Source: Ancrocorticia populi
GTDB lineage: Bacteria; Actinomycetota; Actinomycetes; Actinomycetales; Actinomycetaceae
Reading direction: 5' to 3'
Length of the DNA: 64,000 nt
NCBI RefSeq assembly: GCF_003123745.1
Contig: NZ_QETB01000004.1
Coordinates: 124,001 to 188,000, forward strand
Shown here: in pieces, positions 8,932 to 21,118 of the stretch
Numbering within the stretch: the first letter of the stretch is position 1
Layout: every line of letters begins with the position of its first letter
Translations under genes and position numbers: made by a program
Notes under the pieces: generated by a model
The model's input: the letters and a program-made list of their open reading frames with translations, nothing else
Database searches by the model: none
What the model was told of the DNA's origin: nothing

Positions 8932-10179
8932 ATGTGTCCTCCACCCGCTCCCCGTTTCCTTGTTGGCCATCCGCAACTCGATCCTGTGACCGATGCGGAG
9001 CCCATCGGGGACTTCGATACCGGCTACCATCCACGCCCTCGGTTGAATATTCCGGCCTCGGGGGCATGGAAGGAAGGCGATGATCCCGGGGAGCGGGTGT
9101 TTGAGGACATCGGCCCACTAGAGCTGGAGCTTGGCTCGCGCCTGCCCAACGTGCGGATGGCTTACGAGACGTGGGGGGAGCTCAATGCGGATGGCAGCAA
9201 TGCCGTCCTGCTCTGTCACGCTCTAACGGGCGATTCACACGCGACAAGCAAATCAGGCAACAGCGGCTGGTGGCACGGGATCGTGGGCCCGGGCAAGGCC
9301 ATCGACACTACCAAATACTTCGTTGTGTGTCCCAACGTATTGGGTGGCTGCCAGGGAACCACGGGACCATCATCGATTGCGCCTGACGGGCGCCCGTGGG
9401 GGCCGCGATTTCCCGAGATCACGATGCGGGACATGGTGGCGGCCGAAGCAAAGCTGGCCGATATCCTCGGTGTGCGCGTGTGGGCGCTGATTGCCGGAGC
9501 ATCCTTTGGCGGGAACCTAGTCATGGAGTGGGCTGGGTCTTTCCCCGAGCGCACCGGGGCGATCGCCGTGCTCGTCTCGGGGCCGGCCTCCACCGCCGAG
9601 CAGGTTGCCTTCGCTCACTTCCAAAAGGAAGCCATCCTCCTAGACCCCAAGTTCCGCGGCGGCCACTACTACGATGCCGCCGACGGGGATGGGCCGCATG
9701 ACGGATTGGGTTTGGCTCGCGAGATCGCGCACTTAACATATCGGTGCGCACCCGAGCTTGCCAGCCGCTTCGATCGCACACCCCAAGAGGGCGAGGATCC
9801 CCTGCACGGCGGGCGATTCGCCGTAGAGAGTTATCTGGATTACCACGCCTATAAGCTGGCCATGCGGTTTGACGCCAACTCATACCTTGTCATCAATCAA
9901 GCCTTCATCACTCACGATATCGGGCGCGGACGCGGTGGGACTACGGCGGTGCTGGAGAATCTGCGCATGCCGGCCCTCGTGGTGCAGGTTGATTCCGATC
10001 GCCTTTTCTATCCGGATGATATGCAGGCTTTGGCAGATACCTTGCCCGGCGCCGGGCCGGTTCTCACCGTGTCCTCGCGGCACGGCCACGATGGCTTCCT
10101 CGTGGAGAACGATCAGGTTTCGGCAATTCTCGAGGACTTCTTGGCCACCCTCCCTATTGGCGGGTCTCTCCCCAATTAA
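8932..10179 (+). CDS. metX: homoserine O-acetyltransferase
   Basis: Acetyl-CoA-dependent alpha/beta-hydrolase-fold transferase that produces the metY substrate. Visible features: LCHALTGDSHA, GTTGPSS, the nucleophile elbow GASFGGNLVMEW, the Asp in VQVDSDRLFYP, and the His in SRHGHDGFLVEN. The ATG immediately follows the metY stop. Residues of about 1-40 precede the fold and are poorly conserved. It supplies O-acetylhomoserine directly to MetY, so the pair forms a two-step module. The IS110 target site begins 24 bases after the stop, so the insertion lies just outside the operon. Confidence 0.94.
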   Translation: MCPPPAPRFLVGHPQLDPVTDAEPIGDFDTGYHPRPRLNIPASGAWKEGDDPGERVFEDIGPLELELGSRLPNVRMAYETWGELNADGSNAVLLCHALTGDSHATSKSGNSGWWHGIVGPGKAIDTTKYFVVCPNVLGGCQGTTGPSSIAPDGRPWGPRFPEITMRDMVAAEAKLADILGVRVWALIAGASFGGNLVMEWAGSFPERTGAIAVLVSGPASTAEQVAFAHFQKEAILLDPKFRGGHYYDAADGDGPHDGLGLAREIAHLTYRCAPELASRFDRTPQEGEDPLHGGRFAVESYLDYHAYKLAMRFDANSYLVINQAFITHDIGRGRGGTTAVLENLRMPALVVQVDSDRLFYPDDMQALADTLPGAGPVLTVSSRHGHDGFLVENDQVSAILEDFLATLPIGGSLPN

Positions 10180-10442: not shown

Positions 10443-10511
10443 GTGAAACTTTCCCGGACTGGTAACGGCCTACGGTCATTCTTTATCAGTTCTAGTGAAA
10501 GGATCACCGCA

Positions 10512-11564
10512 ATGTCTATCGTTGCAGATCATCACGGGTTTGTCATTGGCGTGGACTGCCACGCCAAAAACCACGTCTACAGTATCGCCACTGCCAGGGG
10601 CGACATTCTGGCCACACGCCAGTTCCCGACCACGGCGGCGGGGATGGGTCGGGCCATTTCTTGGGTCGGGAGAACCACTGGTGGGGACATGTCGGCGCTG
10701 TTTGCGATTGAGGGAACCGCCACCTATGGGGCCAACCTATCCCGGCTGGCCGCCCGGGCCGGCTACACGCGAGTCGAGGCCCCCTGGACAGGAAAGTCTT
10801 CCAAGGGCAAGAGCGACGAGATTGATGCCGGCAAGATCGCACGGGCGACCCTAGCCTGCCAGATCGACCAGCTACGTGACCCACGCGCGGACGGGATCCG
10901 CGGAGCCCTCGCCATTTTGCTGGCTAGCCGCAACCAGATCCAAACAGCCAAGACCAGTGCGAAAAACCAGTTGACCGCCCTGACCCGGTTCCACGATCTG
11001 GGTATCGATGTACGCAAGACAATGAGCATGAAACAGATCCGAGCCATCGCTACCTGGCAGGCCCGCGATACTGGAGATATTGCCGTGTTCTACGCCAGAC
11101 GGGAAGCAATCGACCTAGCACAGTCGATCCTTCAGCTGGAGAAGAAGGCAGCCACCAATCAGGCTGAGATCCTCGCCTTGGTTCGCCAGTCCGAAGCCGG
11201 GCCCTTGTTGGAAGAGAAAGGGTATGGTCCGATCTCGGTGGCCCAGATCTTCGTGTCGTTCTCCCATGCCGGCCGGATCGAGACCGAAGCCAAGTTCGCC
11301 GCCTTAGCCGGGGTTAACCCGGTCCCGGCTTCCTCCGGCAATACCGTGCGCCACCGCCTCAACAGGGGCGGTGATAGGCAGCTCAATAGTGCCCTGCACA
11401 CGATCGCGTTGACGAAAATGAGAACCGACGAACAAACCAAAGCCTATGTCGCTCGCCGCCGCCTAGAAGGTAAAACCGACCGTGAAATCCGCCGCTGCCT
11501 CAAACGCTACCTCGCCCGCCACGCCTACCGAACACTCAACCACACCCCACCCACCCAACCTTGA
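10512..11564 (+). CDS. IS110-family transposase (DEDD/Tnp_20), copy 1
   Basis: RNA-guided recombinase of about 350 residues. The RuvC-like domain shows the first Asp in IGVDCHAKNH, Glu in FAIEGTATYG, and the paired acids in KSDEIDAGKIAR. The C-terminal Tnp domain has GYGPISVAQIFVSF and the catalytic-serine region NPVPASSGNTVRHRLN. I use the ATG at 10512 (MSIVADHHGF), which has an AAAGGA site upstream. The in-frame ATG at 10443 would translate part of the non-coding end. The protein is about 90% identical by eye to copy 2, with scattered substitutions and no frameshift, so both may be active. Confidence 0.92.
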   Translation: MSIVADHHGFVIGVDCHAKNHVYSIATARGDILATRQFPTTAAGMGRAISWVGRTTGGDMSALFAIEGTATYGANLSRLAARAGYTRVEAPWTGKSSKGKSDEIDAGKIARATLACQIDQLRDPRADGIRGALAILLASRNQIQTAKTSAKNQLTALTRFHDLGIDVRKTMSMKQIRAIATWQARDTGDIAVFYARREAIDLAQSILQLEKKAATNQAEILALVRQSEAGPLLEEKGYGPISVAQIFVSFSHAGRIETEAKFAALAGVNPVPASSGNTVRHRLNRGGDRQLNSALHTIALTKMRTDEQTKAYVARRRLEGKTDREIRRCLKRYLARHAYRTLNHTPPTQP

Positions 11565-14610: not shown

Positions 14611-17487
14611 CTATTCCGATAGACGCGACGCTGTAGCCCTCCCGTCACGCAGAAGCTCGGCCAGATGAATACCGTGAGATCCCTCCAATTGAGCGGCTTG
14701 AGTACGGCACGAGAATCCATCGGCTAAGAAGATAGCGTTCTTATCGGCATGTCGTAAGGCGGGCAGAAGCTTGTTCTCTGCCACCGCCACGGAAACGTCA
14801 TAGTGGCCCGCCTCCATACCGAAGTTTCCGGCCAAGCCACAGCAGCCCGTCACCTTGGTGATTGTTGCCCCGGTCCGTTTGAGCAGCTCCTCATCTGTGC
14901 GCCATCCCATAACCGAGTAGTGATGGCAATGGGGCTGAACCACAATTTCTACACCGGTCAGATCTGGAACGGAGAACTCTTCGGCAGGACCAATCGGTGC
15001 CGGGGCCGTGAGCAGTTCGGAGAGGGTGTACGTCATCTTCGAAACCAGCTCGCTGCGGGCATCCTCAGGAAGTAGATCCAGAAGATCAGAGCGCAGGACG
15101 GCCGTACATGAAGGCTCCACACCAACGATCGGAATACCGTTGGCGGCAAATGGTGCCAACACCTCTAGGAGGTGTGTCAGTTTCCTCTTTGCGGACGTTA
15201 GCTGACCGGTAGAGATCGAGGTAAGGCCGCAGCAGGTTGACTCCGGCGGAATGAGGACGGTGTAGCCAGCTTTCTGCAGCAGCTCAACCTCCGCGCGCGC
15301 ACCGCTCGAATCTAGGGTCTCAGAGAACGAATCGGCCCACAGCATCACGTAGCGCTTATTCCCCAGCTTGCTGGGATTAAACGAGGAGAGGCCCTTTGCC
15401 TGAGGAGACCGCGAAAACCGCTTGGTCGCGAACTTCGGCATGCCGCGACGGGGATCAATCCCGAAGATCTTGAATCCAATCTTCCTCACGGGTGCTATGG
15501 ACATGAAAGCATTAGCAACTCCGGCAACGAACGGCACCTTAGTGACAGCTCCTGCCAACGTTGGCAGGTTACCAAGCGTATAATGAGTGCGTGGCCGCTT
15601 CTTGCCCTGATAGGCGCGGAAGAGAACCTCACTGCGGTAGCGTGCCACATCGATGCCCGTGGGGCAGTCTCGCGAGCACGCCTTGCATGATAGGCACAGA
15701 TCGAGCGATTCAAGAACCTCGGGCGAATCCCAATCTGAGAAGAGCTCCCCATTGGCAAGCTCTTGAAGCACACGGGCACGCCCGCGGGTCACGTCCTTCT
15801 CATCCTGAGTTGCCGCATAGGACGGACACATGAAGAAGCCTGCATCAAATCGATCGGCACGGCAGTTACCTACTCCGGTGCAGCGGTGCACGGCTTGGGT
15901 AAAGCTATCGTCGTCGTCCCCAAAATGGAATCCACCCGCGTAGCTGAGCACGCGTGCCTCCGGGCGGCGCAGTAGGCCGTCAACGGTGTCTGGGTTCACG
16001 AGTACGCCGGGATTCAGGATACCGGCCGGATCGAACAGCGCCTTGACCTGAGCGAAAGTCTCGATAATTTCGGGCGAGTACATGCGTGGAAGCATCTCGG
16101 AGCGCGCGCGGCCATCTCCGTGTTCGCCGGATAGGCTGCCACCGTGGGAGGCCACCAAGTCCGCAGCTTGTTCCATGAAGGCCCGGAAAATCGGCGTGCT
16201 GGTTCGCGAATCGATGGGGAAATCGATGCGGATGTGCACGCATCCATCGCCGAAGTGCCCGTACATAAGCCCGTCTAGTCCGTGCTTGTTCAGCAGGGCG
16301 CGCAGCTCGCGCAGGTAATTGCCCAGTTTCTCCGGGGGAACGGCGGAATCCTCCCACCCTGCCCACGCCGGATGATCCTCAGGCGTCCGCCCGCCAAGGC
16401 CAGCGCCATCGGCGCGGATACGCCACAGTTCATCGGCTTCGGGCCCGGCGGGGCAAACTCGGTATGAGGTGGTGTTCGCTGTACGCGCCAGCTCCTCGGC
16501 GCGTGCAAGAACGTCATCCTTGCTTTCGCCTTCCTCGGCACCGATCTCGATGAACAGCCATCCGCCACCGGCGGGAAGCTCAGGTACGGAACCCTTATGG
16601 CGGCGAACAACCTCGACAAGGTGGGCATCTACGCCCTCCACCGCCAGTGGATTGTATGCCAGCAGTGCCGGAACATCGTCCGCGGCAGCAGGCATATCCT
16701 CGTACCCCAGCACCACGAGGGCCGGTGACTGGGCCACGGGGACCAGCCGCACGGTAGCCTCCGTGACAACCGCGAGCGTACCCTCCGACCCGACGAGGAA
16801 CTTCGCTAGATCCGTCCCGTTTTCCGGCAGGAGGTGCTCCAGAGAGTAGCCGGACACTTGACGCTTGAAACGCCCCATCTCCGTCCGGATAGTGGCCAGG
16901 TGATCGCTCACGATTTCGGAGAGTCCATCGACCACCGTGTCTCCGCGGCCCGCGACGATCTGGGTGCCGTCCGCAAGAAAGGCGGTGAGTTCGTGAATGT
17001 TATCGGCCGTGCGCCCGTAGGCAACGGCGTGCGGACCACATGCGTTGTTCCCGATCATGCCGCCAAAAGTCGCGCGGTTCTGCGTAGAGGGATCCGGCCC
17101 GAAACGCAGGCCGAACTTACCGGCCGCCTTCTGAAGGCTGGCCTCGATCACACCTGGCTGGACACGTGCGGTCCTCTTCTCAGGATCGATCTCCAGTATC
17201 TTGTCCATGTGACGTGAAAAATCTAGAACGATTCCCGGGCCCACGGCATTGCCTGCACAGGAGGTTCCCGCACCGCGTGAGGTAAGCGGAACACCGGTTT
17301 CGCGCGCTACGGCGAGGGCCGCAGCCACATCATCGGCATCCTTTGGGTAGGCCACAACCTTGGGGACTACACGATATGTTGAGCCATCTGTTGAGTATTC
17401 GGCCCTGCGCCGCGTTGACCCGTCCACTTCGCCTTTGAGGACGTCTTGGAGCTTTCCGGCTACATCATCGCTTGTCATCTGGTCCAT
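14611..17487 (-). CDS. fused FAD-linked and Fe-S (GlcD/GlcF-like) 2-hydroxyacid dehydrogenase
   Basis: A 958-residue enzyme of the YdiJ/Dld class, predicted to oxidise a D-2-hydroxyacid (D-lactate, glycolate or D-2-hydroxyglutarate) and pass electrons to the respiratory chain. The FAD-binding domain is first (TSRGAGTSCAGNAVGPGIVLDF split over two strands, then FGGMIGNNACGPHAVAYG). A FAD-oxidase C domain follows (GHFGDGCVHIRIDFP, LSGEHGDGRARSEML). Next are Fe-S segments (CTGVGNCRAD...CPSYAAT and CLSCKACSRDCPTG) and two CCG-type cysteine boxes (ESTCCGLTSI, TGCCGLAGNFGM). The ATG at 17487 is the likely start; a second lies at 17478. It follows the RuBisCO-PRK operon in the same direction, 260 bases away, which makes glycolate a candidate substrate (inference). 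Confidence 0.88.
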   Translation of the reverse strand: MDQMTSDDVAGKLQDVLKGEVDGSTRRRAEYSTDGSTYRVVPKVVAYPKDADDVAAALAVARETGVPLTSRGAGTSCAGNAVGPGIVLDFSRHMDKILEIDPEKRTARVQPGVIEASLQKAAGKFGLRFGPDPSTQNRATFGGMIGNNACGPHAVAYGRTADNIHELTAFLADGTQIVAGRGDTVVDGLSEIVSDHLATIRTEMGRFKRQVSGYSLEHLLPENGTDLAKFLVGSEGTLAVVTEATVRLVPVAQSPALVVLGYEDMPAAADDVPALLAYNPLAVEGVDAHLVEVVRRHKGSVPELPAGGGWLFIEIGAEEGESKDDVLARAEELARTANTTSYRVCPAGPEADELWRIRADGAGLGGRTPEDHPAWAGWEDSAVPPEKLGNYLRELRALLNKHGLDGLMYGHFGDGCVHIRIDFPIDSRTSTPIFRAFMEQAADLVASHGGSLSGEHGDGRARSEMLPRMYSPEIIETFAQVKALFDPAGILNPGVLVNPDTVDGLLRRPEARVLSYAGGFHFGDDDDSFTQAVHRCTGVGNCRADRFDAGFFMCPSYAATQDEKDVTRGRARVLQELANGELFSDWDSPEVLESLDLCLSCKACSRDCPTGIDVARYRSEVLFRAYQGKKRPRTHYTLGNLPTLAGAVTKVPFVAGVANAFMSIAPVRKIGFKIFGIDPRRGMPKFATKRFSRSPQAKGLSSFNPSKLGNKRYVMLWADSFSETLDSSGARAEVELLQKAGYTVLIPPESTCCGLTSISTGQLTSAKRKLTHLLEVLAPFAANGIPIVGVEPSCTAVLRSDLLDLLPEDARSELVSKMTYTLSELLTAPAPIGPAEEFSVPDLTGVEIVVQPHCHHYSVMGWRTDEELLKRTGATITKVTGCCGLAGNFGMEAGHYDVSVAVAENKLLPALRHADKNAIFLADGFSCRTQAAQLEGSHGIHLAELLRDGRATASRLSE

Positions 17488-17747
17488 TGGTCCATTGTGC
17501 ACGTCAACCCCTGCCAATTTCTGGGCCGTCTGGCATACGCAAAGGGACTCGCACCTAATTCGCCAAGATGAAGTGCGGGGTTGCGTCAACTCCCGGGTAG
17601 CCCGGCTCGGAGTTGCGTCAACTCTCTGGTACGGAGATTTACGACGACGACGTCTCCTCCAGCCCGCACCCACTTACGTACGTTGGTGCGGAGGCGAGGC
17701 TTCGTCGTCGCCCTCCAATTTACTCAAGTCTCTGGAAGGTGGGCCCT
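17488..17747. promoter_or_regulatory. 260-base intergenic region with paired TGACGCAA repeats and CGTCGTC hairpin
   Basis: No gene seen. On the minus strand GTTGACGCAAC occurs twice, at about 17617-17627 and 17582-17592, separated by a GC-rich spacer. ACGACGACGACG at 17641-17652 and TCGTCGTCG at 17702-17710 flank a possible hairpin CCGCACC/GGTGCGG. The region would hold the 3' end of the PRK transcript and the promoter of the FAD/Fe-S dehydrogenase gene. Confidence 0.55.
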
Positions 17748-18656
17748 CTACGCGATACTCGGGCTCCTCAACCCGGTTAATCCGCGCGCCTTCCGAGAAT
17801 TCTCCACGAGGCGCCAGATCATCGGGGTGAAGATCAGTTGCATGGACAGCTCCATCTTTCCACCGGGGACAACGATGGCATTGGCTCGAGACATGAAGGA
17901 ACCCTCAATCATCGAGAGCAGATAGGGAAAATCGATTCCGCGAGGATTGGCGAAACGGATCACCACCATCGATTCGTCCAGTGTGGGTATCCATCGGGCG
18001 TCGAATGGGTTCGACGTATCCACGAGCGGAACTCGCTGGAAGTTTATATCTGTGTTGGTGAATTGCGGGCATATGTAATGGACGTAATCGGGCATACGCC
18101 GCAGGATCGTGTCTGTGACATCCTCGGTGGAGTACCCCCGCTTGGAGTGATCTCGGTGAATCTTCTGAATCCACTCGAGGTTAATGATGGGGACAACGCC
18201 TATGCACAAATCCACGTGTTTGGCGATATCTACATCGTCCGTTTTCACCGCGCCGTGCAGGCCCTCGTAGTAGAGGAGATCGGTTTGTGCTTCAAGATCC
18301 TCCCACGGGGTGAAGGTTCCGGGATCGCATCCGAATTCGAAAGCCTCATCTTCGTCATGCACATAGTTTCTGATCCGGCCGGTACCGTCTTTGCCGTACT
18401 GCTCAAAGAGTTTCTCTAAGCTAGTGAAATCGTTGGCCTCCGGCCCGAAGTGGCTGGGCGGAGCAATCCCCGCCGCCGTCGCCTCGTTAAACACTCGCTT
18501 CATCTCAAAGCGATCAAAGCGATGAAACGAATCGCCATGCACGATCGTGGATGTAATAGATTCGCGCCGGAAAATCTGCTCGAAGGTTTCCGTGACCGTA
18601 CTTGTGCCAGCTCCGGAGGAACCGGTGATGGCCACAATGGGATGTTTGCGGGACAT
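17748..18656 (-). CDS. cbbP: phosphoribulokinase (bacterial type I)
   Basis: Phosphorylates ribulose 5-phosphate to ribulose 1,5-bisphosphate, the RuBisCO substrate, and has no other well-known role. The 302-residue protein matches proteobacterial octameric PRK closely: P-loop GSSGAGTSTV, HGDSFHRFDR, YVHDEDEA, LLYYEGLHGAV (Walker B), IGVVPIINLEWIQKIHRD, INFQRVPLVDTSNPF and RGIDFPYLLSMI. GGAGGAG lies just ahead of the ATG. The start follows the FBPase-like gene by 8 bases, so it is the third gene of the cbbM operon. With RuBisCO it completes the two unique Calvin-cycle reactions. Identification is very secure. Confidence 0.96.
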   Translation of the reverse strand: MSRKHPIVAITGSSGAGTSTVTETFEQIFRRESITSTIVHGDSFHRFDRFEMKRVFNEATAAGIAPPSHFGPEANDFTSLEKLFEQYGKDGTGRIRNYVHDEDEAFEFGCDPGTFTPWEDLEAQTDLLYYEGLHGAVKTDDVDIAKHVDLCIGVVPIINLEWIQKIHRDHSKRGYSTEDVTDTILRRMPDYVHYICPQFTNTDINFQRVPLVDTSNPFDARWIPTLDESMVVIRFANPRGIDFPYLLSMIEGSFMSRANAIVVPGGKMELSMQLIFTPMIWRLVENSRKARGLTGLRSPSIA

Positions 18657-18664
18657 AGCTCCTC

Positions 18665-19741
18665 CTAGTGAAGAAAATACAAGGATCGGTTATGGAACAG
18701 TGGCGAGTTTGCTAGGCCCACGTATCCCTCTTCCTCTTCAACCGCATATCGCTCAATCAGAGACACGTCATAGCGCGCCCCAAGGATGATCGATGTCCGA
18801 TAATCGAGTGAATCAGGCACCAACTCGCTCAGTGAGGCCGAGCCGCTAGACGCGCCGCCCCCTGCCTGTTCGATGATGGTCGCGAGCGCATCGGCCGCAT
18901 GGAGTAGGCGCAGCCCCGGAGTGTCTGGAGCGCCAAGAGTACCCGGTTGGCTCTGCAACTCCGGCATCATGAAGAGCCCTCCATTGAGTAGGATCCGGTA
19001 AGTGCCGATGAGCGCGGAGTTATTCCATCGGATCTCGAGGCCACGCCCCTCGGAATCTGCTTCGGCGATGCGCTCATCCACGTATCGGGTGATTGCCGGC
19101 GGCCACTTGGGGCCGTTGGACAGATTGACCGCGAGGACATCCGAAGATTCGGGCAGTCTCATGTGCGGATGAGTCAGAACGAAACTGCCAATCCTCCGAT
19201 CGAGGGTAAAACCGTCCACGCCCTGCCCAGTAGTCACGATCAGGACCGTGGATGGCCCAAGCAGTCCCATCCCGGCGCAAACCCGTTCGTTGTTCGGGTT
19301 AAGAAAATCCTCCATGCTCCCGTTGGTATACCCCGGTTCAGCGCGGCGCCTCACCGTGAACGTGAGGCCCACGGGTTGGTTTTCCACAAGCTTGCTCGAT
19401 CCCAGATGTACCTCAAAGCACAACAGGTAGGGCGCCTGCGGATCCTCGGAAATCACGTGGATCTCACTCCCGCCTGCCTCGTCCGCCAACGCTACGGCCG
19501 CCACCTGCGGCAAGTTGGAGACCTGATCCAGAACCGTCTCGGTGGTACGCCGATAGAGTTCGCGCCGAAGCTCTGCTGGGTCTCCCGCCTGAGACGAATC
19601 CAGAACGAGCGGTCCACGGCTCACATCGGAAGCCAAGAGCCTCACGCACACAGCAATGGCATTGACGAGGTGCGTATATGGCGGCCCAGTATGGCCCTCC
19701 TCCGCGTCAGGCAGATAGCGTGTCAGGGTACAGGTTGCCAT
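18665..19741 (-). CDS. class I fructose-1,6-bisphosphatase-like protein, metal site lost
   Basis: 358 residues that follow the class I FBPase fold: GLLGPSTVLIVTTGQGVDGFTLD, GSFVLTHPHMRLPE, WPPAITRYVDE, LLNGGLFMMP and IIEQAGGGASSG are all recognisable. Key catalytic positions are replaced. The SEE metal-binding step reads ADE (residues 86-88), the DPLDGSSN signature reads EVHLGSSK (110-117), and the YE of LLYE reads HA in LLHAADALA. Loss of nearly all metal ligands predicts no bisphosphatase activity, yet the frame is intact and tightly packed, 3 bases after cbbM and 8 before cbbP. A structural or regulatory role, or an altered reaction, is inference. Confidence 0.75.
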   Translation of the reverse strand: MATCTLTRYLPDAEEGHTGPPYTHLVNAIAVCVRLLASDVSRGPLVLDSSQAGDPAELRRELYRRTTETVLDQVSNLPQVAAVALADEAGGSEIHVISEDPQAPYLLCFEVHLGSSKLVENQPVGLTFTVRRRAEPGYTNGSMEDFLNPNNERVCAGMGLLGPSTVLIVTTGQGVDGFTLDRRIGSFVLTHPHMRLPESSDVLAVNLSNGPKWPPAITRYVDERIAEADSEGRGLEIRWNNSALIGTYRILLNGGLFMMPELQSQPGTLGAPDTPGLRLLHAADALATIIEQAGGGASSGSASLSELVPDSLDYRTSIILGARYDVSLIERYAVEEEEGYVGLANSPLFHNRSLYFLH

Positions 19742-19744
19742 CGC

Positions 19745-21118
19745 TCACAGCCCCAGACGAGCTCTCCACCCGGGGAACAACTCATCGGCATCACCCGGGA
19801 AAGACTCAAAGGCACGAGCGAACTCATGATGGTCCTTTGCCCACTCCACGGGATCGGCGCCGGCCTCCCAACATGCATGTGCCTGACGGAGGGAGAGTGC
19901 ACCGGCGGCGGGGCCGTCGATGTGGCCATAGGAGCCACCACCGGCCGTATTGAGAACGTTTGCGTGGCCGAGGTTCGTGAAGAAACCCGGAAGCCGGAGT
20001 GCGTTCATTCCACCCGAGACGATGGGCATCGTGGGCTTCATCCCGTACCACTTCTGGTAGTAGGCAGGGCCCTGATATTCGTCTCGTTCGATGATGAAGG
20101 CGGTTGCGCGATCGTCTGCCGCCCCTTCCATCTTGCCATAACCCATCGTCCCCACGTGAATGCCGGAGGCGCCCTGAAGGCGAGCCATCTTCGCCAGCAC
20201 GTAGGCGGTGTAGCCGCGGTTAGAATTGGGTGATGTGACCATCCCGTGGCCGGCTCGATGGTAGTGCAGGAACTGATTCGGGAAGTGACGGCGTGCCGTG
20301 GTGATCATCCCGGGGCCGCCAACGAATCCGTCTACTAGGAACGCCACCTTGTCCGCATCGGGGCCAAAGCTCTCGAGTATGAACTCCCCGCGCGCCAGCA
20401 TCTCATCGTGATCATCCGCGGTGATATTGGCACTGAACAACTTGGCCTCGCCCGTTTCGTCCATCGCGCGTTTCATGGCGTCATAAACCAGCGGAATGGT
20501 CTCCCGCAACGGCGCAAACACCTGATTACCCTGCGGTTCATCATTCTTGATGAAATCACCACCCAGCCAGAACTCATAGGCTGCCTTGGCGAATGGCTCG
20601 GGCCGCAGGCCAAGCTTCGGTTTAATAATTGTTCCGGCGATGTAGCCGCCGTTCTCCACGGGCTTGCCTAAGATCCTCCACAGATCCTGCGCCCCCTTTG
20701 CCGGCCCATCGAACAACTCAATCGCCCGTCGTGGCATGTAGAAGTCATACATTTTGGCATAGGCGATATCCCCCATGCCTTGGTTGTTGCCGATGGTCAG
20801 GGTCAGGAAGGACACCATCATCATTCGGCCGTCACGAATGTTCCGATCGAAGAGTCCAAGCGGATAGGCAATCCGAATCTCTTCGGCTTCTTCGTTCGCG
20901 TAATACACCAATGCGTCAAACCGCTTGGTGAAATCGTCCGTGGTGGAAACAACCACGTTTGTTCCAGTGGATGATTCCGCCGCAAAATGGGCGGCGGCCT
21001 CCAAGTAGCCGGTTCCCGCCTTCGGCTTGAATGTGTAGGCGCACAGAATGTGCTGGCCCTGATTAATTAGGTCCTCTTCACTGAGGTTGAGGTCCACATA
21101 CCGTGATGACTGATCCAT
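19745..21118 (-). CDS. cbbM: ribulose-1,5-bisphosphate carboxylase/oxygenase, form II large subunit
   Basis: Fixes CO2 onto ribulose 1,5-bisphosphate to give two 3-phosphoglycerates. The 457-residue sequence resembles Rhodospirillum rubrum CbbM, including the opening [10 protein letters not shown]. Catalytic elements are complete: [10 protein letters not shown], the carbamylated-lysine motif [21 protein letters not shown], the loop-6 lysine in [18 protein letters not shown], and the phosphate-binding [10 protein letters not shown]. Form II enzymes work as dimers without a small subunit, and no cbbS is present. A GGGGGA site precedes the ATG. It is the first gene of cbbM - FBPase-like - cbbP. 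Such an operon is unexpected in this type of actinobacterium and suggests horizontal transfer. Confidence 0.97.

Follow-up and report, generated by a model that had tools for sequence, protein, structure and literature searches.

A fructose-bisphosphatase homologue stripped of its catalytic residues, conserved beside phosphoribulokinase in actinobacteria with PPi-dependent phosphofructokinase

Introduction

Why would a Calvin-cycle operon hold on to a fructose-bisphosphatase (FBPase) gene whose product has lost the residues that make it an enzyme? The question is raised by a cbb operon in the window, the 64,000-nucleotide stretch of Ancrocorticia populi DNA analyzed here, in which an initial annotation recognized an FBPase-like protein without metal ligands, took it to be under selection and suggested that it could be a pseudoenzyme which regulates RuBisCO or PRK or binds a sugar phosphate. 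The product of this open reading frame is here named FbpL. PPi-dependent phosphofructokinase (PPi-PFK) is reversible and stands in for FBPase and SBPase in some Calvin cycles (PMC4287430), and a 2025 review of phosphofructokinases remarks that organisms possessing it might be expected to inactivate or lose their FBPase genes; the same review leaves undecided whether PPi-PFK serves any organism as the principal enzyme for both directions (PMC12203962). RuBisCO genes have already been published for Tessaracoccus and Propionicimonas (PMC13286885), as has RbcL of form IA or II for Propionicimonas, Propionicicella and Flaviflexus (PMC12999727). In the open-access literature, we found neither a report of an FBPase-derived pseudoenzyme in a RuBisCO or cbb operon nor a description of the FBPase homologue of these loci as catalytically dead.

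Results

An FBPase fold between RuBisCO and phosphoribulokinase

The cassette holds three genes, all read from the minus strand:

19745..21118, minus strand: cbbM, 457-aa large subunit of form II RuBisCO with its catalytic motifs (Pfam, NCBIfam NF010002, motifs)
18665..19741, minus strand: fbpL, 358-aa protein of the class I FBPase fold that lacks the catalytic residues (ORF, Pfam, PDB sequence and fold, residue table)
17748..18656, minus strand: prk, phosphoribulokinase (PRK) of the proteobacterial type, 302 aa (Pfam, NCBIfam NF011997, motifs)

The neighbours score well above their NCBIfam cut-offs, the cbbM product with 847 bits against 489 (NF010002) and the prk product with 495 against 362 (NF011997). 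Between them, the fbpL frame opens with an ATG and runs through its 358 codons without an internal stop, starting 3 nt after the cbbM stop and ending 8 nt before the prk start, so that the operon context and tight spacing first described hold. The fold assignment is likewise borne out: both the N and the C domain of Pfam FBPase are matched over cut-off (70.7 and 73.8 bits), sequence comparison with the PDB returns the class I FBPases 7k74 and 2gq1 as best relatives, and Foldseek with an AF2 model (pLDDT 85.7, pTM 0.87) places E. coli FBPase 2gq1 first (E 8e-25, TM 0.77/0.88). As modelled, the protein adopts the fold of class I FBPases.

Loss of the catalytic residues

Five stretches of the gene, all on the minus strand, record what has been lost and what has been kept (catalytic positions follow rabbit FBPase numbering):

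19556..19612, minus strand: what remains, in shortened form, of the dynamic catalytic loop (rabbit 52-72), with the Asp74 region (alignment)
19478..19486, minus strand: SEE, with the metal ligands Glu97/Glu98, replaced by ADE (sequence alignment)
19391..19414, minus strand: EVHLGSSK in place of DPLDGSSN, with Asp118, Asp121 and the phosphate loop (sequence alignment; AF2 model)
18896..18907, minus strand: LLYE replaced by LLHA, which removes Glu280 and changes Tyr279 to a His that is invariant in clade I (sequence alignment)
18677..18703, minus strand: conserved C-terminal tail PLFHNRSLY, also retained in genome G181, which lost the rest of the gene

The alignment confirms the three substitutions originally noted (SEE to ADE, DPLDGSSN to EVHLGSSK, and Ala for the Glu of LLYE) and extends the loss beyond them to Asp74, Tyr264, Lys274 and the shortened 52-72 loop. 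Residue by residue, the window protein carries D74Y, E97A, E98D, D118E, D121L, N125K, Y264M, K274G and E280A, the pairing at E97/E98 being ambiguous by one residue (homologues have A or S there, along with G in most cases). The metal-ligand set E97, D118, D121 and E280, together with Asp74, is thus gone, replaced by A, E, L, A and Y, and residues 115-121 of the AF2 model, part of the old phosphate-binding loop, have a pLDDT under 50. Against the class 1 equivalog NF006779, with its cut-off of 349 bits, FbpL reaches only 186 and four of its homologues 263-300, all below; in the same test an intact cbbF scores 529, the Nocardia protein 450 and the Methyloversatilis protein 441. Judged from its residues, FbpL very probably has no FBPase activity.

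FbpL across genomes

The initial annotation had called for homologues to be searched for the same substitutions. Across the window's family and named GTDB genomes, 12 further FbpLs were found, making 13 carriers in total: the window genome, five others of its family, Tessaracoccus lapidicaptus, Tessaracoccus sp. MC1679, a Propionicimonas MAG and other actinobacterial MAGs, with named Propionibacteriaceae among the carriers of clade I. The catalytic set is lost in all 12 and their frames are full-length; D74, D121, Y264 and K274 are missing from every one of the 13 proteins and E280 from 12, at lengths of 339-429 aa and without a stop anywhere. Catalytic loss in FbpL is a family trait, and a frameshift or assembly artefact is ruled out by the agreement of 13 independent genomes. 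The setting is equally constant. A form II cbbM lies near fbpL in all 13 (80-86% identical to that of the window in the other carriers), and fbpL stands directly upstream of prk in all 13 across gaps of 8-19 nt, an order kept in three genomes with divergent cbbM. This strict linkage is nonetheless ancestral, inherited from ordinary cbbF-cbbP operons.

By comparison, the catalytic set is kept almost without exception in 73 other cbbF genes, the partial losses falling into the Nocardia/Antrihabitans, Nakamurella and Methyloversatilis groups, all three of which keep D118 and D121. Nocardia cbbF (L051, L056 and others in L055-L093) has E98Q and E280G, and that of Antrihabitans (L075) E97Q, E98Q and E280G; by sequence, this may possibly be another partial loss of FBPase activity. 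The gene adjoins one whose product matches the form II query at only ~32%, and GlpX is also present in both Nocardia genomes tested. The Nakamurella MAG shows D74N, E97D and Y264D. In the Methyloversatilis group (L044, L054, L092, L095; 7983-9077) the FBPase adjoining prk carries E98G, G122C and S124N, and M. universalis encodes another two class I FBPase copies elsewhere in its genome, its sole PFK having the PPi-type motif GGND/PKTVDND.

In the FbpL of locus L012 (9880-11169), a low-complexity insertion of ~75 residues, placed between positions 264 and 274, interrupts the former substrate loop. One genome goes further: G181, the seventh genome of the window's family with cbbM, keeps cbbM, prk and PPi-PFK and has lost fbpL except for its tail. 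What is left directly upstream of prk (L154, ~9780-10019) is a ~70-aa ORF that contains the FbpL tail motif and ends in APLFRDRTLFLARGD, a short match to FbpL (E 0.04). Since this genome deleted fbpL and kept cbbM and prk, at least one lineage can do without FbpL.

Selection and rate of evolution

Codon models give an omega of 0.059 for FbpL of clade I, 0.057 for canonical cbbF, 0.036 for prk and 0.029 for cbbM, values from a wide codon set in which synonymous sites are near saturation; fixing omega at 1 for FbpL worsens the fit by 873 lnL. Sister pairs that diverged after the loss yield counts-based (NG86) omegas of 0.17, 0.25 and 0.34 for FbpL and, within those pairs, of 0.05-0.10 for prk and cbbM. 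Relative to PRK, the median rate ratio is 3.0 in clade I, 7.4 in clade II and 1.5 for intact cbbF; constraint on FbpL is weaker than on canonical cbbF, with evolution ~2 times (clade I) to ~5 times (clade II) as fast. Former active-site positions have a mean conservation of 0.58 against a gene mean of 0.52 (permutation p 0.16), as compared with 0.89 against 0.73 in intact cbbF. Within clade I, N245, A248 and H279 are invariant in 11 of 11 sequences and H121 is found in 10 of 11, the window protein being without it. Taken together, these comparisons speak for a protein-level constraint that is real and no longer centred on catalysis.

Random decay among homologues, which the initial annotation had named as the outcome that would speak against selection, did not appear: there is no stop, and dN/dS is far below 1. 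The claim of selection therefore stands on the open frames, the low omega and the losses common to homologues. Of the pseudoenzyme proposal, the part that holds from comparative data is the loss of residues under purifying selection; the absence of FBPase activity is read from those residues. A conserved FBPase-derived pseudoenzyme is, on these sequence comparisons, well supported.

A background without another recognisable FBPase and with PPi-PFK

FbpL is the sole class I FBPase in the 213 genomes of the window's family, where it occurs in exactly six, all with cbbM; no class II FBPase (GlpX) exceeds its cut-off in any of the 213, and the relatives without cbbM have no recognisable FBPase of either class. 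Neither a class II nor a second class I gene was found in the 7 other carriers, and a search of the carriers for classes III and V gave only one fragment, in G044, an isolated 82-residue match to the class III C-terminus in a 140-aa ORF (G044:C128:2391-2627). A hidden second FBPase was considered and set aside, as the search of classes I, II, III and V turned up nothing beyond this fragment.

PPi-PFK is nearly universal in the same family. The enzyme of the window genome (403 aa, G000:C6:79393-80604) matches its NCBIfam equivalog with 728 bits against a cut-off of 395 and has the GGDD motif, and PPi-PFK is found in 209 of 213 family genomes, including all 199 of good quality. Its motif is present in 12 of the 13 FbpL carriers; one carrier, the MAG G204, has no PPi-PFK match. 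An ATP-type PFK is also present in the window genome. We further observed there an open frame with two tandem PFK domains, like eukaryotic ATP-PFK (G000:C1:883688-885709; L142), and a tandem two-PFK-domain frame of 744-901 aa occurs in every FbpL carrier genome.

The gene content of the PPi-PFK variant of the Calvin cycle is thus found, namely RuBisCO, PRK and a PPi-PFK gene, with no working FBPase or SBPase gene detected. By analogy, PPi-PFK probably takes over the dephosphorylation of FBP and SBP, and an active FBPase would therefore be redundant or drive a futile cycle. That the lineage has PPi-PFK and no other FBPase would explain why catalysis was lost in FbpL. This reason was missed by the initial annotation, whose substitutions, selection and pseudoenzyme reading are supported and whose proposed regulatory role is plausible.

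One origin or two?

In the PRK tree, the two clade II loci (L013, L014) join Rhodocyclales/Sulfuritalea and separate from the remaining carriers, and a single group of FbpL carriers is rejected (p-AU 0.0025). All carriers fall together in the CbbM tree, and the FBP tree, with its long branches, is compatible with one or two origins. Clades I and II have different replacement residues at most catalytic sites. Because the PRK tree rejects one carrier group, FbpL probably originated twice independently, with catalysis lost both times in the same context; the simplest reading is that an fbp-prk pair was acquired twice beside the same cbbM lineage and each time lost its activity.

Discussion

What, then, is the protein for? 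The best explanation that we can offer, which as a whole we give about an even chance, is that a redundant cbbF turned into a non-catalytic, PRK-linked partner in actinobacteria with PPi-PFK. A normal cbbF would have come in as part of a form II RuBisCO/PRK cassette, its hosts being actinobacteria otherwise devoid of a recognisable FBPase. Reversible PPi-PFK would already convert FBP to F6P, and probably SBP to S7P, yielding PPi, so that FBPase activity would have been redundant and also harmful, since it would presumably have worked against the ATP- and PPi-PFKs in a futile cycle. Loss of the metal ligands and of the catalytic loop may have followed, the protein itself being kept, folded, probably oligomeric, non-catalytic and co-translated with PRK. 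Because FbpL has been retained under selection, a non-catalytic role can be argued, and a regulatory one is plausible: FbpL would most likely bind PRK, with RuBisCO a less likely target, and tune its activity or stability, possibly when the remodelled pocket is occupied by a sugar phosphate. The role as a partner of PRK is the likeliest of the specific roles, and we put it forward tentatively, as something short of an even bet. The fullest version, in which FbpL is a metabolite-sensing pseudoenzyme that arose twice, its pocket binding a Calvin-cycle sugar phosphate and its contact with PRK gating the RuBP supply to form II RuBisCO in a PPi-based, FBPase-free cycle, is speculative and rather unlikely to be right in every part.

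Several observations could be read in another way, with FbpL as a decaying relic that has no function of its own and whose frame persists only through translation coupling to prk over the 8-19 nt between them. It evolves faster than canonical cbbF, its active-site columns have lost their former special conservation, the L012 protein tolerates its ~75-aa insertion, and in G181 the gene has been cut down to a ~70-aa ORF ending in the tail directly before prk. Coupling, however, demands a frame and not a protein, whereas an omega far below 1 and a pTM of 0.87-0.89 demand selection at the protein level; moreover, G181 demonstrates that the body can be removed with prk kept, yet 13 genomes hold FbpL at full length. 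We therefore regard a relic as unlikely. A new enzymatic activity, acting on a different phosphate ester or using another metal, would call for a rebuilt site, for which H121, H279, N245, A248 and R74 together with the retained acidic residue at 118 and R243/W244 are candidates, and the new residues fixed in clade I are what such a site would look like. Conservation of the former active site is nevertheless no higher than the gene average, for which reason a specially conserved rebuilt site was rejected and is kept here only as a rival; H121 is absent from the window protein, clade II has other residues, and differences fixed among 11 sequences may be plain shared ancestry. The odds of a new enzyme are accordingly poor.

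Could FbpL instead be a weak residual FBPase/SBPase, the only one that these genomes have? It is the one class I FBPase homologue per carrier genome, and some members have kept acidic residues near 98 and 118. Against this stand the loss of Asp74, Asp121 and the catalytic loop, and of Glu280 in 12 of 13; the scores of all FbpLs tested, which lie below the NCBIfam class 1 cut-off with the intact enzymes above it; and the family relatives that live without cbbM and without any FBPase, along with G181, which keeps cbbM and prk without FbpL. Residual activity thus seems very improbable, and the non-catalytic partner of PRK is the reading that we prefer.

Set beside known systems, FbpL resembles the class I CbbF of cbb operons (Sulfuritalea/Rhodocyclales, Nocardia) in fold, length, the PLFxxRxLF tail, R243/W244 and its place directly upstream of prk, but it differs in having neither the metal ligands nor Asp74, Tyr264, Lys/Arg274 and the dynamic loop, in falling below the class 1 cut-off, and in evolving faster. 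With the PPi-PFK Calvin cycle of Methylococcus capsulatus and chemosynthetic symbionts (PMC4287430), the lineage shares RuBisCO and PRK, a PPi-PFK gene and the lack of a detectable working FBPase/SBPase; there, however, as that paper describes it, the FBPase/SBPase genes are absent, whereas here a conserved dead homologue stays in the operon, and the reversal of PPi-PFK is predicted. The kept fold, lost catalytic residues and purifying selection are those of pseudoenzymes in general. Here an entire bacterial family has PPi-PFK but lacks a recognisable FBPase, and within it an acquired Calvin-cycle FBPase appears to be caught after catalysis and before gene loss. The question left by the review can therefore be put to the test in organisms that grow in culture, for instance Tessaracoccus, a relative with the same cassette. 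If FbpL does bind PRK, it would add a new point at which RuBisCO metabolism is controlled.

Other features of the loci

Further conserved cbb partner genes were sought around the cassette and discarded as candidates, the flanking genes scanned differing between genomes. In the window, prk is followed by a gene for an FAD/4Fe-4S oxidase of the glycolate or lactate dehydrogenase type (14611-17673, minus strand), no counterpart of which was seen next to prk in a comparison with five relatives from the family; a tie to phosphoglycolate salvage is only a guess. Some 6 kb past the end of the cassette lies an ORF (10443-11564, plus strand) that resembles, by eye only, an IS110-family transposase. In Tessaracoccus lapidicaptus, a heliorhodopsin gene stands directly upstream of cbbM (L016, 5342-6343, minus strand).
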